Positions 11,839 through 56,876 of a stretch of 64,000 nucleotides of DNA are shown here, one piece after another. Under the pieces are notes generated by a model. It was not told where the DNA came from, searched no databases, and saw only the letters and a list, made by a program, of their open reading frames with translations. Source of the DNA: Prolixibacter bellariivorans ATCC BAA-1284. Lineage in GTDB: Bacteria > Bacteroidota > Bacteroidia > Bacteroidales > Prolixibacteraceae. Positions within the stretch are counted from its first letter, which is position 1; each line of letters opens with the position of its first letter. The stretch spans positions 248,001 to 312,000 of the forward strand of contig NZ_JHXO01000001.1 of the NCBI RefSeq assembly GCF_000621705.1, written 5' to 3'. The position numbers were made by a program, and so were the translations under genes.

Positions 11839-11852
11839 TTCCTTAACGCATA

Positions 11853-11883
11853 GAAAAAGGGACGCCATAAGCGTCCCTTTTTT
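11853..11883 (+). terminator. Intrinsic terminator after the susCDEF-like operon
   Basis: A stem AAAGGGACGC / GCGTCCCTTT with loop CATAA, followed by a run of T, just after the stop of the SusF-like gene. The amylase at 11921 therefore needs read-through or its own promoter. Confidence 0.85.
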
Positions 11884-11920
11884 ATACTTAAAAATTTAAT
11901 TATCCGGGCTTTCCTAATCC

Positions 11921-13894
11921 ATGAAAAAACTATTTATCATACTAACTCTGATTTTTGCCTTCATCTTCAAAACGGAGGCTCAGTCCGATGTCATGATGCA
12001 GGCGTTTTATTGGGATCCACCGGTAGATGCAGCACATTTAAATGGCATTTGGTGGGACAAACTGGCCGGTGAAATACCCGAGTTGGAAGCTGCCGGAATA
12101 AAAGCGCTGTGGATTCCTTCTCCCTGCAAAGGGAACTGGGGAATATACGATATGGGTTATGGCATTTATGATCATTACGACCTTGGTAATTTTAAACAAT
12201 GTGGTACCGTAGAAACGCGTTTCGGATCGAAAGCCGAATTGATGAACCTTTTGCACGTGGCGCATGATACGTCGAAAGGTCAGCGAATGGACATTTACGC
12301 CGACATTGTCATGAATCATATGTATTCCACACAGGAAAAAGATTTGGAGCGAAATCCTGTTGTGAAGAAATACATGCAGGAACAGGCTGTGATAAAAGGG
12401 AAAGCACATGCTCCGTACCCAACCAATGAGATTGCCTGGCAATTTATTCCTTCCCGGCCCGGCAATTATATTTTCCACATCCGCGGATTTCATCTGAACT
12501 TTGATGCGCCCGCATCGGAACGTTTTTTTCAATTTGAATGCAATCTTCCGGCTCGTGCCGGAAATAGCTCTGAGGAAACACCTCAAAAAAAATATTACAG
12601 GACAATTCAATCACCTGAAAGTGAACAGGAATTTCAGGTGGATGTGCCTGCCGATAAGACAACCCAACCTGTCGAAATTCGCTTAACTGCCCAAAAGAGT
12701 CTCGATGGTAAGAACTTTCAGTGGACCGACCAAAACAATGCCTATTATGTTTTCGATGTAACTTTGGCAGGAAAATCGGTAAACGATTCACTCTTTGCGC
12801 TAACGCATACCGGCATACACTATGTCGATCACGGAAATCTTCCCAACCTGAAATGGCATTATTCCGATTTTCATCCCTCCGATGCAACCGACTCGCTTGG
12901 TTTTCCGGGAAAACGGGATACACTGATGACCAACGTGAAATGGTTTGGAAACGATTTGAATACATTGAAGCCAGAAGTTCAACAACGTTTTTTGGCTTGG
13001 GGCAAGTGGCTCTCCGATTCCATTGGCTTCGATGGTTACCGGCTCGATTTTGTTCAGGGTTACCAACCGGAAATGGTCGCCAAGTGGGTGACGAACCTGC
13101 CAGTCGATGCAAATGGGAAACAGCCGTTTATTGTCGGTGAATATTTCACCAATTATCCCGATAGGATACATGACTGGGTACAACGAGTGGATAATTACCG
13201 TTTTCACGGAAAACATCCCAATGTTACTGCTTTCGATTTTCCACTGAAAAAAGCCTTGACTGACATGTGCAATGGTGATGGAAAGTCTTTTTCGATGAAG
13301 CGCTTGGCAACGGCCTCAATGAGTAACAACGGAAAATATGAACTCCCGGCATCATCGGTCGTCAGCTTTGCTGAAAATCATGATACGGGGAAGGAACACG
13401 ATAAATGGATCGTGAAAGACTGGCGAATGGCCTATGCGTACATTTTGTTTGCGCCGGAACGGCCTTGTATTTTCTATCCACATTACTACGGTGTAAAGCA
13501 GCACGATTTTAACAACAAGGAATTTTCGGTGCAGGCACCGGATTCGTTGCGGGTTTTTATTGATAGATTGATTAAAATCCGGGCAAAATACCTGGACGGT
13601 TCAATGATTCCATTGAAGTTTAGTGAATGTCCTGCTCCCGGTAATTTATTTGTGGCGAGACGTGAAGGTGGAGAGAAGAACTCCGGTGCCATTTTAGTTT
13701 TAAACAATAATGGCTCAAAAGAGCTAAGCTGCGTGGCTGACACGAAAGCAAAGTGCTACTCCGACTGGGCTGGTAAAAAGCTCATTAATTTGCTCCGGTT
13801 CGGCGATGAAGCGAATGTATCGAAAGATGGATTTGTGGAACTAAAAGCACCTCCAAGAGGTATATCTATTTATGTACCGGTCGAAGAACAATAG
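11921..13894 (+). CDS. Secreted alpha-amylase family GH13 enzyme with inserted beta domain
   Basis: Hydrolyses alpha-1,4-glucans outside the cytoplasm; a plain signal peptide (residues 1-20, ending KTEAQ) without a lipobox suggests the periplasm. The four GH13 regions are present: DIVMNH (about 127), GFDGYRLDF with the nucleophile Asp (about 368), IVGEYF with the acid/base Glu (about 405) and FAENHDTG (about 484). Between regions I and II lies an unusual insertion (about residues 150-290), rich in beta strands and Thr/Glu. Length 657. It is 26 bp upstream of the second amylase gene's leader, on the same strand. It could be the functional counterpart of SusA. Confidence 0.88.
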   Translation: MKKLFIILTLIFAFIFKTEAQSDVMMQAFYWDPPVDAAHLNGIWWDKLAGEIPELEAAGIKALWIPSPCKGNWGIYDMGYGIYDHYDLGNFKQCGTVETRFGSKAELMNLLHVAHDTSKGQRMDIYADIVMNHMYSTQEKDLERNPVVKKYMQEQAVIKGKAHAPYPTNEIAWQFIPSRPGNYIFHIRGFHLNFDAPASERFFQFECNLPARAGNSSEETPQKKYYRTIQSPESEQEFQVDVPADKTTQPVEIRLTAQKSLDGKNFQWTDQNNAYYVFDVTLAGKSVNDSLFALTHTGIHYVDHGNLPNLKWHYSDFHPSDATDSLGFPGKRDTLMTNVKWFGNDLNTLKPEVQQRFLAWGKWLSDSIGFDGYRLDFVQGYQPEMVAKWVTNLPVDANGKQPFIVGEYFTNYPDRIHDWVQRVDNYRFHGKHPNVTAFDFPLKKALTDMCNGDGKSFSMKRLATASMSNNGKYELPASSVVSFAENHDTGKEHDKWIVKDWRMAYAYILFAPERPCIFYPHYYGVKQHDFNNKEFSVQAPDSLRVFIDRLIKIRAKYLDGSMIPLKFSECPAPGNLFVARREGGEKNSGAILVLNNNGSKELSCVADTKAKCYSDWAGKKLINLLRFGDEANVSKDGFVELKAPPRGISIYVPVEEQ

Positions 13895-46112: not shown

Positions 46113-46141
46113 AAAAGCCCGTGAAAAGCGGGCTTTTTTTG
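46113..46141 (+). terminator. Terminator after ribE
   Basis: AAAAGCCCG (46113-46121) pairs with CGGGCTTTT (46129-46137), with a further T-run. Confidence 0.9.
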
Positions 46142-46553
46142 TGGACTTAGGTGAAGGTAGTTTTCTGATTTTTAGTGCAAAAAAAAGGTTGCAACTCGTG
46201 CAACCCCTTTTGTGTATTTAAGGACAACATGTTCTTCTGGGAATTGGGAAAATGGAAAAAGAATAACAAAGTTTGCCCTTAAAATGCCTGCTTTTAAAAT
46301 CTTCTGCAAAGTAGTAGTTCTACGAGATCTAACCAAATTTTTTTATTAACATTTGTTGCGTTCATATCTGCTTTCTGCTTCTCATAAGGTGCTGGATGTC
46401 TTATATGATTGGCAGTAATTAACGGGAGCATTTCAAACAGCAATAGTTTTTATGTTCATACATATAAAATTGCATGTTTCAATCACCCAATTACGGCAAT
46501 GTTGTATACTGATTGTGGCTGAAAAATAGTAACTTGAATATCGAAGATAAGTT
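46142..46553. other. Intergenic region with an orphan minus-strand terminator-like hairpin
   Basis: No ORF of note. GGTTGCA (46187-46193) and TGCAACC (46199-46205) form a hairpin with loop ACTCG. Read on the minus strand it is followed by eight T, the form of an intrinsic terminator, although no minus-strand gene lies upstream in this gap. The remaining 350 bp are AT-rich; I found no exact promoter on either strand. Confidence 0.4.
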
Positions 46554-50204: not shown

Positions 50205-50618
50205 TTAGTACCTTCTGTCGGAGCGACGGTTGAAATCTCTGTTTCCACCATCCCGATTAAAATCTCTGTTTCCACCCTCGCGGCGGTAACCTCCTTCACG
50301 GCGATAACCACCACCGCCACCGCCACCGCGGTTGCCTCCGTCGCGACGAAAATCACGGCGCTCTTCACGTCCGCCTTCACGGGGGGCTGATTTCTTAACG
50401 ATAATAGTGCTACCCTGAAGCTCTGAATCGTTCAATTCACTGATTGCTTCATAAGCCTCGGGGTCGTTAGGCATTTCAACAAATCCATATCTTTTGGAGT
50501 TCCCGGTTTCCCGGTCAAAGATAACTTTGGCGTAAGCAACTTCGCCATAATGTGAAAAAAGATTCTCAAGGTCTTCGCTTGTAGTCTCGGAGCTAAGCTT
50601 TGCTACAAAAATGTTCAT
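50205..50618 (-). CDS. RRM-domain RNA-binding protein with Gly/Arg-rich tail
   Basis: A 137-residue RNA-binding protein. One RNA recognition motif (1-80) has RNP2 MNIFVAKL and RNP1-like KRYGFVEM (about 42-49); residues 84-137 are a tail of Gly, Arg, Asn and Asp repeats (RREGGYRREGGNRDFNRD), resembling eukaryotic RGG proteins and cyanobacterial Rbp proteins. Bacteroidota use such proteins as abundant RNA chaperones or post-transcriptional regulators. A minus-strand -7 box, TACTTTTG, at 50738-50731 predicts a leader of about 105 nt. It lies 3.4 kb from the small RNA array rich in GTTAG, a possible ligand (inference only). Confidence 0.92.
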   Translation of the reverse strand: MNIFVAKLSSETTSEDLENLFSHYGEVAYAKVIFDRETGNSKRYGFVEMPNDPEAYEAISELNDSELQGSTIIVKKSAPREGGREERRDFRRDGGNRGGGGGGGYRREGGYRREGGNRDFNRDGGNRDFNRRSDRRY

Positions 50619-52840: not shown

Positions 52841-52922
52841 ACTCATTGAGATACCGATTGGTTATCTCAAAACCACATACGATCTTTGTGGTTTGTTTCC
52901 TTTATATAAAAAGAATTCGTTA

Positions 52923-53951
52923 ATGATATATGTAACTGGGGGGACCGGAATGCTGGGAGCTCATTTGCTTTATCGCCTGACAAAATCGGGCTACCAGGTA
53001 AGAGCATTGAAGCGTGAAACCAGCAACCTGAACCAGATAAAAAAAATATTTTCTTATTATAGTTCCGAAGAAGAAGCGGAACAGCTTCTGGCAAAAATTG
53101 AGTGGGCAGATGGCGACTTGCTTGACCGCGATTCTATCAAGTTGCATCTGAAAGGTGTTAATTTCATTATTCACGCTGCTGCGATGGTTTCCTTCAGTCG
53201 AAGGGATCGTAATGCAATGTTGCACAATAACGTGGAGGGAACCGCGAATTTGGTTGATTTAGCCAGAGAATCAGGAATCAGCCGTTTCTGTCATGTAAGT
53301 TCTACTTCGGCGCTGGGAAATCCGCCCGAAGGTGTACCTGCTTCCGAAGAGCATGTTTGGAATAACAGCCGGAAACGCACCGCTTACGGCAAGAGTAAAT
53401 TCCTTTCCGAAATGGAGGTTTGGCGTGGTATGAACGAAGGAATGGAGGTGCTGATTGTGAATCCGGGGGTGATTATCGGTCCAGGCAATTGGGATACGGG
53501 TAGTCCCCAACTTTTCAAAACGATATGGAACGGATTTCAGTTTTATACCGAAGGAGGAACCGGTTTTGTTGATGTCCTTGATGTGAGTGAGGCCATTGTA
53601 TCAATGATAGATCAGCCACAATGGGAAATCGTCAGGAATCAACGATATGTGTTGGTGGCCCGGAATGTGAAGTTCCGCGAGTTCTTTAATCTGGTTGCTG
53701 ATGATCTGGGTAAAAAGAGACCGACTATTCCTGTGGGCGATTGGCTTTTGGCGATTGCGTGGCGACTTGCCCTTGTTGTCTCTTGGTTCAGTTCTTCCAG
53801 ACCTGCGATTACCCGCGATAGTGTCAATGGTTCAAACCAAATGAGTGATTATGATGGTTCTCATATAACCCGTATGATTCCTTTTCAATACCGTACTATT
53901 GAGGAAAGTGTGGGCAGAGTTGCAAAAATATTTCTGAATGAGCATCGCTAA
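52923..53951 (+). CDS. NAD(P)-dependent epimerase/dehydratase family protein
   Basis: A 342-residue short-chain dehydrogenase of the extended type. The dinucleotide-binding motif is TGGTGMLGAHL (5-15); the catalytic pair is YGKSK (about 157), with Ser in VSSTSALG (about 125). It resembles dihydroflavonol reductase and sugar epimerase relatives, and its substrate is unknown. The ATG at 52923 places the Rossmann strand at the very start, as usual; an upstream TTG adds ten unlikely residues. The small RNA array begins just after its stop. Confidence 0.85.
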   Translation: MIYVTGGTGMLGAHLLYRLTKSGYQVRALKRETSNLNQIKKIFSYYSSEEEAEQLLAKIEWADGDLLDRDSIKLHLKGVNFIIHAAAMVSFSRRDRNAMLHNNVEGTANLVDLARESGISRFCHVSSTSALGNPPEGVPASEEHVWNNSRKRTAYGKSKFLSEMEVWRGMNEGMEVLIVNPGVIIGPGNWDTGSPQLFKTIWNGFQFYTEGGTGFVDVLDVSEAIVSMIDQPQWEIVRNQRYVLVARNVKFREFFNLVADDLGKKRPTIPVGDWLLAIAWRLALVVSWFSSSRPAITRDSVNGSNQMSDYDGSHITRMIPFQYRTIEESVGRVAKIFLNEHR

Positions 53952-54036
53952 GCTAATTTTCAACTGAGAGATTTGGTTAAGGATATTTAAGGACACTTGA
54001 ATTTACTTAACAGAATAATGCCTCATCTTTGTTCCT

Positions 54037-54128
54037 AAGGAAGAGCAAGTTTTTCATTGATATGTTAGAGTTAGTTGGTTTAATCAGTTAGGTTTTACAA
54101 AGCCGGGTTCTCAGCCCGGCTTTTTTTT
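54037..54128 (+). ncRNA. Small RNA unit 1
   Basis: Predicted 92-nt transcript. -7 box CATCTTTG at 54024-54031, TTAACAG at 54007-54013. It has GCAAGTTTTTCAT at 54045, a 29-nt C-free stretch (54056-54084) and terminator GCCGGG/CCCGGC (54102-54120) with eight T. Diverged from units 2-4 in the middle but with the same landmarks. Confidence 0.65.
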
Positions 54129-54202
54129 AACAGCTATAAGGTTTAACTTTCTTTAATACCTGTTCGAATCAGTTAACAGAAAAAACGGACATCTTTGTCA
54201 AC

Positions 54203-54297
54203 AGGAAAAGCAAGTTTTTTCATAGGAATCTTTAAGTTAGGTTAGTTTGGTTTAGTTAGGTTAGAAAAAGTCGGGAACACAGCCCGACTCTTTATTT
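54203..54297 (+). ncRNA. Small RNA unit 2
   Basis: Predicted 95-nt transcript. -7 box CATCTTTG at 54190-54197, TTAACAG at 54173-54179. C-free tract at 54231-54271 with four GTTAG/TTTAG motifs. Terminator AGTCGGG/CCCGACT (54269-54289), tail CTTTATTT. Confidence 0.7.
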
Positions 54298-54419
54298 ATG
54301 TGATAAGTATTCGTGCCCTTCTTATCGGAACATTTCGTATTCTCTACTTACCATAAGGTTTAACTTTCTTTAATACCTGTTCGAATCGGTTAACAGAAAA
54401 AACGGGCATCTTTGTCAAC

Positions 54420-54526
54420 AGGAAAAGCAAGTTTTTTCATAGGAATCTTTAAGTTAGGTTAGTTTGGTTTAGTTAGGTTAGGTTAGTTTATTAAGAGTCG
54501 GGTTCTCAGCCCGACTCTTTTTTTTT
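54420..54526 (+). ncRNA. Small RNA unit 3
   Basis: Predicted 107-nt transcript. -7 box at 54407-54414, TTAACAG at 54390-54396. The C-free tract is 51 nt (54448-54498), longer than in unit 2 by one extra GGTTAG step. Terminator GAGTCGGG/CCCGACTC (54495-54517) with nine T. Confidence 0.72.
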
Positions 54527-54645
54527 GTGATAAGATTCGTGTCCTTTTTATCGGAGCATTTCGTATTCTCTATTTACTATAAGGTTTAACTTTCTTTAAT
54601 ACCTGTTCGAATCAATTAACAGAAAAAACGGGCATCTTTGTCAAC

Positions 54646-54742
54646 AGGAAAAGCAAGTTTTTTTCATAGGAATTTTTAAGTTAGGTTAGTTTGGTTAGGT
54701 TAATTTATAAAAGGACCGGGTTCTCAACCCAGTCCTTTTTTT
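54646..54742 (+). ncRNA. Small RNA unit 4
   Basis: Predicted 97-nt transcript. -7 box at 54633-54640, TTAACAG at 54616-54622. C-free tract of 50 nt (54666-54715) with fewer GTTAG motifs. Terminator AAGGAC-GGGTT / AACCC-GTCCTT (54711-54736) with one C-A mismatch and a T-run. Confidence 0.7.
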
Positions 54743-54871
54743 ATGGACGGTAATTTGAAACTAATCTGATCGCTGAAAATTTGATTGAGTGATTAAGGTG
54801 TTTGGGCGGGGTTTGATTTCTCGGGTATCCGACTAAAGGACTGAACTAAATTGTGTACCACCTTTGTTAGC

Positions 54872-54955
54872 ACGAAAAGCAAGTTCTTTTTAAGTCAGTC
54901 TGGTTAGAATAATTAATGAAAGAACCGGCTTCCTTTTCAGGAACCGGCTCTCTTA
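54872..54955 (+). ncRNA. Small RNA unit 5 (diverged)
   Basis: Predicted 84-nt transcript. -7 box CACCTTTG at 54859-54866; the TTAACAG position reads TGAACTA. GCAAGTT is at 54879. The middle is short with one clear GGTTAG. The terminator is a longer stem around CCGG-TTCCT / AGGAA-CCGG (54925-54948) with one bulged C and tail CTCTTAT. Confidence 0.55.
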
Positions 54956-54960
54956 TATGT

Positions 54961-55465: not shown

Positions 55466-56725
55466 TTATTTGAGCTTAAAATGCTCTTTTATTTTCTCAA
55501 CATAGTCGAGTTTTTCCCATGTGAAGAGTTCAACTTCGCGTTCCAGCTTGCCGGAATATGGCGATTCAAAATTCTTGACAACCGTTCTTGGGGTACGTCC
55601 CATGTGTCCGTAGGCAGCAGTCTCCTCGTAAATGGGATTGCGAAGCTTTAACCGTTTTTCGATAGCAAATGGGCGAAGGTCGAAAATCTCCCTAATCTTT
55701 TCTGCAATTTCACTGTCTGACAGGTCGACATTTGACCGGCCATAGGTGTTAACATAGATGTTTACGGGTTGTGCTACGCCAATAGCATAGGCCAGCTGAA
55801 CCAACATTTCGTCGGCAACGTCGGCAGCTACCAGGTTTTTGGCGATGTGGCGGGCAGCATAAGCAGCCGATCTATCGACCTTCGACGGGTCTTTACCCGA
55901 GAATGCTCCACCTCCGTGTGCACCTTTACCTCCATATGTATCGACAATAATTTTGCGTCCGGTTAATCCGGTATCACCGTTGGGGCCTCCTATTACGAAC
56001 TTTCCGGTAGGATTAACGTGCAGAATATATTGATCGTCGAACAGTTCCTTCAAGCGTTCGGGCAATTTGGCAACCGTGCGAGGAATCAGAATTTTGCGAA
56101 CATCGTCCTTGATTTTGGCCAGCATGCGCTCGTCATCGTTGTCAAAGTCGTCGTGCTGTGTCGACACTACGATGGTGTGAACCCGCAGCGGCTCGTTTTC
56201 TTCGTTGTATTCAATCGTTACCTGTGATTTGGAGTCGGGGCGGAGGTAAGTCATTTCTTTTCCCTCACGGCGAACTTCAGCCAACTCAAGCAACAGACGG
56301 TGTGACAATTCCAGGGGAAGCGGCATGAAATCATCGGTTTCTTTGCATGCATAACCGAACATCATTCCCTGGTCACCTGCTCCCTGGTTCTCGCGATCTT
56401 CGCGATCGACGCCTCGGTTGATGTCAGGAGATTGTTCGTGAATAGCTGTCAGGATACCACAGGAGTCGCTGTCGAACTGATACTCCGCCTTGGTGTACCC
56501 AATGCGGGCAATCACATCGCGGGCTTCTCTCTGAACGTCAATGTACGTCTGTGTTTTTACCTCGCCGGCAATTATTACCTGCCCTGTGGTTACCAAGGTC
56601 TCAATCGCCACTTTCGAGTCCGGATCATATGCCAGTAAGGTATCTAACAATGCATCGGAAATTTGATCGGCCACCTTATCAGGATGTCCTTCCGATACTG
56701 ATTCTGAAGTAAACAGAAATCCCAT
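55466..56725 (-). CDS. metK: S-adenosylmethionine synthetase
   Basis: Makes SAM from methionine and ATP. The 419-residue protein opens with [20 protein letters not shown] (landmark 5-24), has [16 protein letters not shown] (about 116-131, methionine-binding loop) and [19 protein letters not shown] (about 271-289, the P-loop-like region). Full length. Its mRNA leader of about 145 nt carries a SAM-II-like element, so its product probably feeds back on it. With metH and metF elsewhere in the window it completes the methionine-SAM route. Confidence 0.97.
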
Positions 56726-56814
56726 AATTATAATTTTTTGGACGGCTCAGGCCGACCATCGATGAAACAAATACAGAACGGGACGTTAAATGGTTGATTG
56801 ATAATAGACGGGAA

Positions 56815-56868
56815 GGCGTTGCTTTAGCATTTTTTTCCGTGGTTGCAATCAATCAAATCTATCCACAT
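56815..56868 (-). promoter_or_regulatory. Putative SAM-II riboswitch in the metK leader
   Basis: On the minus strand the leader reads GTGG (56866-56863), GATTTG, TTGCA, CCAC, an A-rich linker, then GCTAAAGC (56828-56821). GTGG/CCAC forms P1. TTGC can pair with GC(T)AA, and TTG with the following CAA, forming the pseudoknot P2. Order and conserved bases (GATTT, TTGCA, GCTAAA) agree with the SAM-II class known mainly from alphaproteobacteria. The predicted mRNA start, near 56871, falls just ahead of it. The match is by eye, not by covariance model. Confidence 0.65.
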
Positions 56869-56876
56869 TCGAGGCA

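Follow-up and report, generated by a model that had tools for sequence, protein, structure and literature searches.

The window analyzed here, a stretch of 64,000 nucleotides from Prolixibacter bellariivorans ATCC BAA-1284, carries an array of five direct-repeat units between a NAD-dependent epimerase-like gene on its 5' flank (52893-53951) and metK on its 3' flank (55466-56725, minus strand). The boxes opening the units start at 54007, 54173, 54390, 54616 and 54842, in line with the five consecutive units described in an earlier sequence-only reading. The unit size of about 220 bp given there holds for the steps of 217, 226 and 226 bp, but not for the first one of 166 bp. Promoter-like block, short leader and terminator are present in every unit. 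In units 1-4, the leader after the box block ends in GCAAG, and behind it come a T-run closing with CAT, a GTTAG tract and a GC hairpin with a T-run. Scanning the whole window with Rfam at gathering level returned only a tRNA and a SAM-II riboswitch, the latter (66.4 bits) at 56814-56872 on the minus strand, ahead of metK.

By direct reading, the block TTAACAG-N10-CATCTTTG is exact in four of the five units, at 54007..54031, 54173..54197, 54390..54414 and 54616..54640 on the plus strand (units 1-4). It had been ascribed to all five; the counterpart in unit 5, however, reads TGAACTA-N10-CACCTTTG, with a degenerate upstream box and a -7-like box at 54859..54866 (+). The block resembles the Bacteroidota -33/-7 promoter: in units 1-4, CATCTTTG with TTAACA upstream is one letter off the consensus and is a predicted promoter. 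GCAAGTT follows TTTG after 13 bases in unit 1 and after 12 bases in units 2-5. After GCAAG stands the element TTTTTTCATAGG, referred to below as the seed, which takes the variant form TTTTTCATTG in unit 1 and is missing from unit 5. This is the key element of the units, and it was overlooked in the sequence-only reading. The C-poor GTTAG stretch is present in units 1-4, with 2, 1, 1 and 0 C, whereas the tract of unit 5 is short and contains a single GTTAG.

The predicted sRNAs all lie on the plus strand and measure about 93-107 nt in the intact units and 86-107 nt over all units. The sRNA of unit 1 (54037..54129) consists of the leader GGAAGAGCAAG, the seed TTTTTCATTG, the GTTAG tract and a terminator at 54099-54128. 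Those of unit 2 (54203..54297) and unit 3 (54420..54526) carry the seed TTTTTTCATAGG, with the longest GTTAG tract in unit 3, and that of unit 4 (54646..54744), which gave matches to Rfam GibS and FopS below their cut-offs, carries TTTTTTTCATAGG. Unit 5 (54872..54958) is decayed, its -33 box being changed, its tract short and the seed bases CATAGG gone. A 27-bp repeat, AAGGTTTAACTTTCTTTAATACCTGTT, lies at 54138..54164 (+), 5' of unit 2, with further copies 5' of units 3 and 4 (54355-54381 and 54581-54607). This repeat, missed in the sequence-only reading, is a possible regulator site. A second array of the genome, C10, carries a similar CTTTAA-rich stretch.

A hairpin at the end of all five units, as previously described, is seen by reading. 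The plain terminator scan gave five terminator-like sites versus 1.0 expected, one for each of units 1-4 on the plus strand and one on the minus strand; the stem of unit 5 is absent from its output. Whole-unit folding was clearly better than that of dinucleotide shuffles for units 1, 3 and 4 (z -3.4, -3.1 and -2.4), and not better for units 2 and 5 (z -0.2 and -1.3). The predicted folds contain the terminators, a 5' GGAAAA/UUUUUUC hairpin and some tract pairing. In units 1-4, the leader can cover the U-run of the seed in these folds, which counts against the explanation favored below. No sense ORF of at least 20 aa common to the units was found, confirming the sequence-only reading on this point, and two minus-strand ORFs of 28 and 29 aa have only their first residues in common.

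Covariation was counted on an alignment of 21 units at E<=0.006 (A6), which includes five units of P. denitrificans and leaves out three of the genome's own units (C9_3, C9_4 and C3_1). In the terminator helix, 12 of 13 pairs show changes on both sides. For the whole structure of 19 pairs, terminator plus 5' hairpin, this number is 14, a value reached by none of 500 shuffles; as the alignment was fitted to the model, these counts are flattered. Sliding the partner by 1-3 columns lowered pairing from 94% to 47-62%. The recount on A6 was made because a larger alignment (A4, 29 rows, E<=0.5) had included weak rows that were set aside. An alignment extended by the promoters (A5) was judged too gappy for modelling.

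The genome of Prolixibacter denitrificans DSM 27267, also of the family Prolixibacteraceae and with a DnaG 95% identical to the one encoded here, contains an orthologous five-unit array after the same gene (L081 11165-12110). Over units 1-4, leader and seed are the best-kept part, with 94 of 94 positions identical, compared to 90/100 in the promoter block, 145/167 in the tract and 101/120 in the terminator. The copies of the 27-bp repeat before units 2-4 agree at 80 of 81 bases, the remaining spacer before these units at 86 of 129-130 (about two thirds) and the spacer before unit 5 at 42 of 92. The P. denitrificans ortholog of unit 5 still has the seed bases CATAGG. Because leader and seed are kept, the spacers have diverged and the terminator stems covary, sequence comparison gives good support to the view that the units are separate RNA genes multiplied in tandem. 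The proposal of small RNA genes arisen by tandem duplication is thereby well supported, and the sRNA interpretation of the units is very probably right.

Two covariance models were used for searches, R1 built from the five window units, as the sequence-only reading had proposed, and R2 built from 21 units. R2 models the terminator helix only, as the C2 and C3 arrays have not conserved the 5' hairpin. R1 and R2 revealed further arrays in the same genome, which holds five arrays in total with 19 units by eye and 17 at E<=0.01. Beyond the window, these are C10 with two units, C9 with five by eye (three at E<=0.01), C2 with two and C3 with five. Seed flanks differ among the arrays, with GCAAGTTTTTTCATAGG in the window and much alike in C10, TTTTTATTCATAGG in C3 and TTTTTTTTCATAAG in C2; together with the seedless unit 5, this fits the earlier suggestion of slightly different specificities. 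The C2 array (L039 3005-3293 and 3513-3725) follows two tandem tRNA-Arg (acg) genes. Weak R1 matches in the window at 46121-46215 (+) and 54705-54791 (-) were set aside by eye. A weak match at 11849-11940 (-), with TTTTTTCATGG and a terminator and no clear GTTAG tract, is either a diverged member or chance and was likewise set aside.

In the family sample, all 80 genomes and all 23 genera match at E<=0.01 (own genome included). The best E-value is at most 0.001 in 68 of the 80, and the matches sum to 298. At least 19 of the 80 genomes have two or more same-strand matches within about 600 bp, and groups of at least two such matches are held by 12 of 24 rescanned loci. The core TTCATA is conserved in the units of other genera, except that the first unit of both L161 and L162 reads TTCATT, and their tracts resemble GTTTAGGTTTAGTTAGGTTAGTTAG; a few weak opposite-strand rows are chance matches. 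At L017 1680-1778 (+), a weak model match, a lone seed TTTTTTTCATAGGATTG is followed by a terminator. In the class sample, for which fewer candidates were scored per genome than in the family sample, 10 of 296 genomes match at E<=0.001 (own genome included). At L223 1501-1718, in another family of the same order, two units lie next to each other, of which the first carries TTTTTTCATAGG and a GTTAG-like tract. Among the open-licence PMC papers listed by the searches, no description of sRNAs of such kind in Prolixibacter or Prolixibacteraceae was found.

The sequence-only reading knew of no described family with this layout. This does not hold, as the plan is that of FopS and GibS of Bacteroides, though below the Rfam cut-offs. 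Relaxed Rfam scans of the window gave 28 and 29 matches at E<=10, of which 6 and 10 alignments were inspected; among these, the seed is common only to BTnc231, GibS and FopS, which are linked to the units by the shared 5' stretch GUUUUUUUCAUAG. For FopS (RF04319), unit 4 scores 19.4 bits and the best unit of the genome, C9_1, 42 bits (E 1.6e-4 for the genome), versus a gathering score of 56 bits. GibS (RF04182), with a gathering score of 115 bits, reaches 30 bits at unit 4 and has the 5' seed GUnUUUUUCAUAG in common with the units, but is reported to differ from them by another type of promoter, by an additional seed, termed R2, and by hairpins in its middle part (PMC11697453, PMC7366714). BTnc231 (RF04180) shares the 13-base stretch GUUUUUUUCAUAG with unit 4, but is a model of 154 positions that scores 25 bits versus a cut-off of 80.4.

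FopS of Bacteroides thetaiotaomicron has the same TAnnTTTG-like box, 5' seed UUUUUCAUAG, C-poor UUAG/GGUUAA stretch and terminator hairpin, and likewise occurs as many paralogs per genome with a seed complementary to susC start regions. Its seed UUUUUCAUAG, termed R1 and located near the 5' end, is exact in units 2-4, reads CATTG in unit 1 and is missing from unit 5. In a side-by-side comparison, a FopS copy reads TATATTTG-N4-GTGTTTTTCATAGTATTAGATTTAAGGTTAAC-hairpin and C9_1 reads CATCTTTG...AGTTTTTTTCATAGAATTAGGTTAGTTTAGGTTAAG-hairpin. Compared with one FopS sequence, the 5' part of C9_1 outscored all of its 1000 mononucleotide shuffles. The result was weaker for units 1 and 2 of the window array, which 8 and 19 of 1000 shuffles equalled. 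At E<=10, the FopS model marked 8 of 14 control genomes, most of them by chance, and therefore only E<=0.001 was used, at which one of the 14 controls, Bacteroides ihuae, matched. At this threshold, 8 of 197 sampled class genomes match. Six of them exceed the cut-off and belong to two other families of the same order; the own genome and one more stay below it. The reverse search was weak, as R2 gave five matches at E<=1 on 28 FopS loci (a doubtful one, L267, left out), the best at 0.028 and three of them at the place of FopS.

Further differences concern size and arrangement. FopS is reported to be about 65-70 nt long, versus 86-107 nt predicted here, and to have a canonical sigma-ABfr promoter (PMC11697453). 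The FopS-model matches, among those listed, are more than 1 kb apart, whereas the units here stand in tandem at 166-226 bp; such packing does not appear in the description of FopS within the available part of PMC11697453. Unlike FopS, the Prolixibacter units begin with a GGAAAAGCAAG leader, their GTTAG tract is longer, and their scores lie under the Rfam cut-off. The most fitting description of the array is that of FopS-like sRNAs in a longer form, set in tandem, of the Prolixibacteraceae; it was called FopS-like and not filed as FopS because the reverse test is weak and the score of C9_1 lies under the cut-off. A tandem layout is also found for Listeria LhrC, OmrA/B and the Neisseria sibling sRNAs, which have unrelated sequences, belong to other phyla and use other protein partners. 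As with the units, one sRNA is present in several copies, which presumably serve dosage and the sharing of targets, and these sRNAs are named as paralogs in PMC11697453.

The seed TTTTTTCATAG is the reverse complement of CTATGAAAAAA, i.e., two bases, the start codon and two lysine codons, an opening found in many SusC-type genes of the genome. In the own genome, 11 of 30 SusC start regions contain CTATGAAAAAA, as against none of 119 other ORF starts (Fisher 4e-9), based on 30 fetched of 43 over-cut-off SusC matches and on ORF starts chosen by rule, not annotation. Starts with ATGAAAAAA are commoner in SusC anyway (16/30 versus 8/119), and therefore part of the seed match reflects start composition; among ATGAAAAAA starts, CT precedes in 11 of 16 SusC versus 0 of 6 others. 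Over the genome as a whole, CTATGAAAAAA has 43 sites and the reversed pattern 14. Judged by coordinates, 14 of these 43 sites are found a short way upstream of a SusC match on the same strand. A further 8 fall within sRNA seeds, one of which is a weak candidate (C9:214722). Among 27 fetched sites that are not in the window array, 19 stand at the opening of an ORF of at least 100 aa, which is SusC in 10 cases and not in 9; 13 further sites were left out of this tally. Duplex energies favor SusC starts for five of six seeds, with p values from 1e-5 to 5e-9 and a preference that none of the 60 seed shuffles attains, and the seed of unit 1 (CATTG) showed no significant SusC preference (p 0.075, within the shuffle range). 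The long seed including GCAAG had no target excess (8 besides the array versus 8 for the reversed pattern), and its matches are assorted ORFs or lie outside ORFs.

In a second genus (G060), the genome's own seed TTTTTTTTCATAAG gave -11.7 kcal/mol at SusC starts versus -7.6 kcal/mol, and the Prolixibacter seed a smaller SusC advantage (-8.3 versus -6.4 kcal/mol). None of the 29 SusC starts there carries the exact seed complement CTTATGAAAAAA and two carry CTATGAAAAAA; the excess of ATGAAAAAA starts in SusC (12/29 versus 11/38) is not significant. In this genus it is pairing energy, not exact matches, that supports SusC targeting.

We consider it likely that the tandem units encode FopS-like RNAs that repress SusC-type translation and are probably handled by an RRM protein. 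Each intact unit would be its own sRNA gene, producing a transcript of about 93-107 nt. Its 5' anti-start-codon seed, UUUUUUCAUAG(G/A), would pair with CUAUGAAAAAA, covering the start codon and lysine codons of many SusC-type mRNAs, and would thereby block the ribosome and repress translation, by analogy with FopS in B. thetaiotaomicron. There, FopS-10 pairs with susC start regions and translation is blocked, a block that RbpB relieves (PMC11697453). Tandem copies may raise the dosage, and arrays with different seed flanks may share out the targets. What was observed is the gene anatomy, the conservation, the terminator covariation, the family-wide spread and the enrichment of the seed complement at SusC starts of the own genome; transcription, pairing, repression and protein binding of the units are what we infer. 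Functional sRNAs of the same plan might instead act mainly on mRNAs other than SusC, either of further MKK-starting proteins or of unknown kind. This would accommodate the 9 non-SusC ORFs among the 19 opened by the fetched CTATGAAAAAA sites, the unit 1 seed and the few exact matches in G060; SusC starts, the sole gene group tested, are nevertheless strongly enriched in the own genome, and we regard a different main target as unlikely.

The tracts of units 1-4 contain 3, 5, 6 and 3 copies of UUAG, counts reached by 7, 0, 0 and 21 of 1000 mononucleotide shuffles. For repressors of SusC-type translation, this nearly C-free repeat tract would probably be the landing site of an RRM-domain protein. 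A gene for an RRM_1 protein with a glycine-rich tail (Pfam RRM_1, E 6.4e-19) is located at 50205..50618 on the minus strand, 3.4 kb upstream of the array, and is one of three RRM_1 matches in the genome; its product is a candidate RNA-binding partner of the sRNAs. The array RNAs could also be a protein sponge, whose UUAG repeats titrate the RRM protein and whose seed is secondary, in the way that CsrB and RsmZ titrate CsrA. The over-represented UUAG, the nearby RRM gene and the reappearance of the tract behind a different 5' part in one genus outside the family (five genomes) are compatible with such a role, but a pure sponge needs neither the seed nor its match to SusC starts, and it is leader and seed that are kept best (94/94, versus 145/167 in the tract), so that we find a sponge improbable. 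The reported binding preference of RbpB, for GUAGGAUA but not for a probe containing UCCUGUGC (Adams et al. 2021, cited from PMC12119571), would suit the sponge as well. FopS itself is bound by the RRM protein RbpB. A mobile or non-RNA repeat without RNA function, be it an insertion-element remnant, a coding repeat or stacked terminators, is hardly credible, since the units, although direct repeats, share no sense ORF, have no match in phage or plasmid collections, occupy the same site in P. denitrificans, where the functional parts are conserved and the spacers have changed, and form arrays in other genera.

FopS-type control of glycan transporters is described as conserved within Bacteroidaceae (PMC11697453). 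If the favored reading of the units as FopS-like repressors is true, such control reaches Prolixibacteraceae, in tandem and in a longer form. The natural seed variants and the arrays would offer a test of dosage and seed identity in setting sRNA specificity. These bacteria are reported to be without Hfq, ProQ and CsrA (PMC12119571), and the common tract, with 298 model matches in the 80 sampled genomes, is a concrete candidate binding site for RRM proteins.

Outside the family, a similar tract with a terminator follows a different 5' part (CTGTAA...) in the five genomes of one genus mentioned above (L215, L216, L218, L219 and L220, near 1501-1580). As the tract stands behind another 5' part at these loci, a modular scaffold is suggested. 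More speculatively, the C-free UUAG tract and terminator might constitute a portable Bacteroidota sRNA scaffold, recognized by RRM proteins in place of Hfq, with tandem copying and seed swapping making each array a set of anti-start-codon repressors of nutrient transporters; we put this forward as a tentative idea. At L224 1501-1595, also outside the family, it is a hairpin-like stretch that precedes a similar GTTAG tract and terminator.
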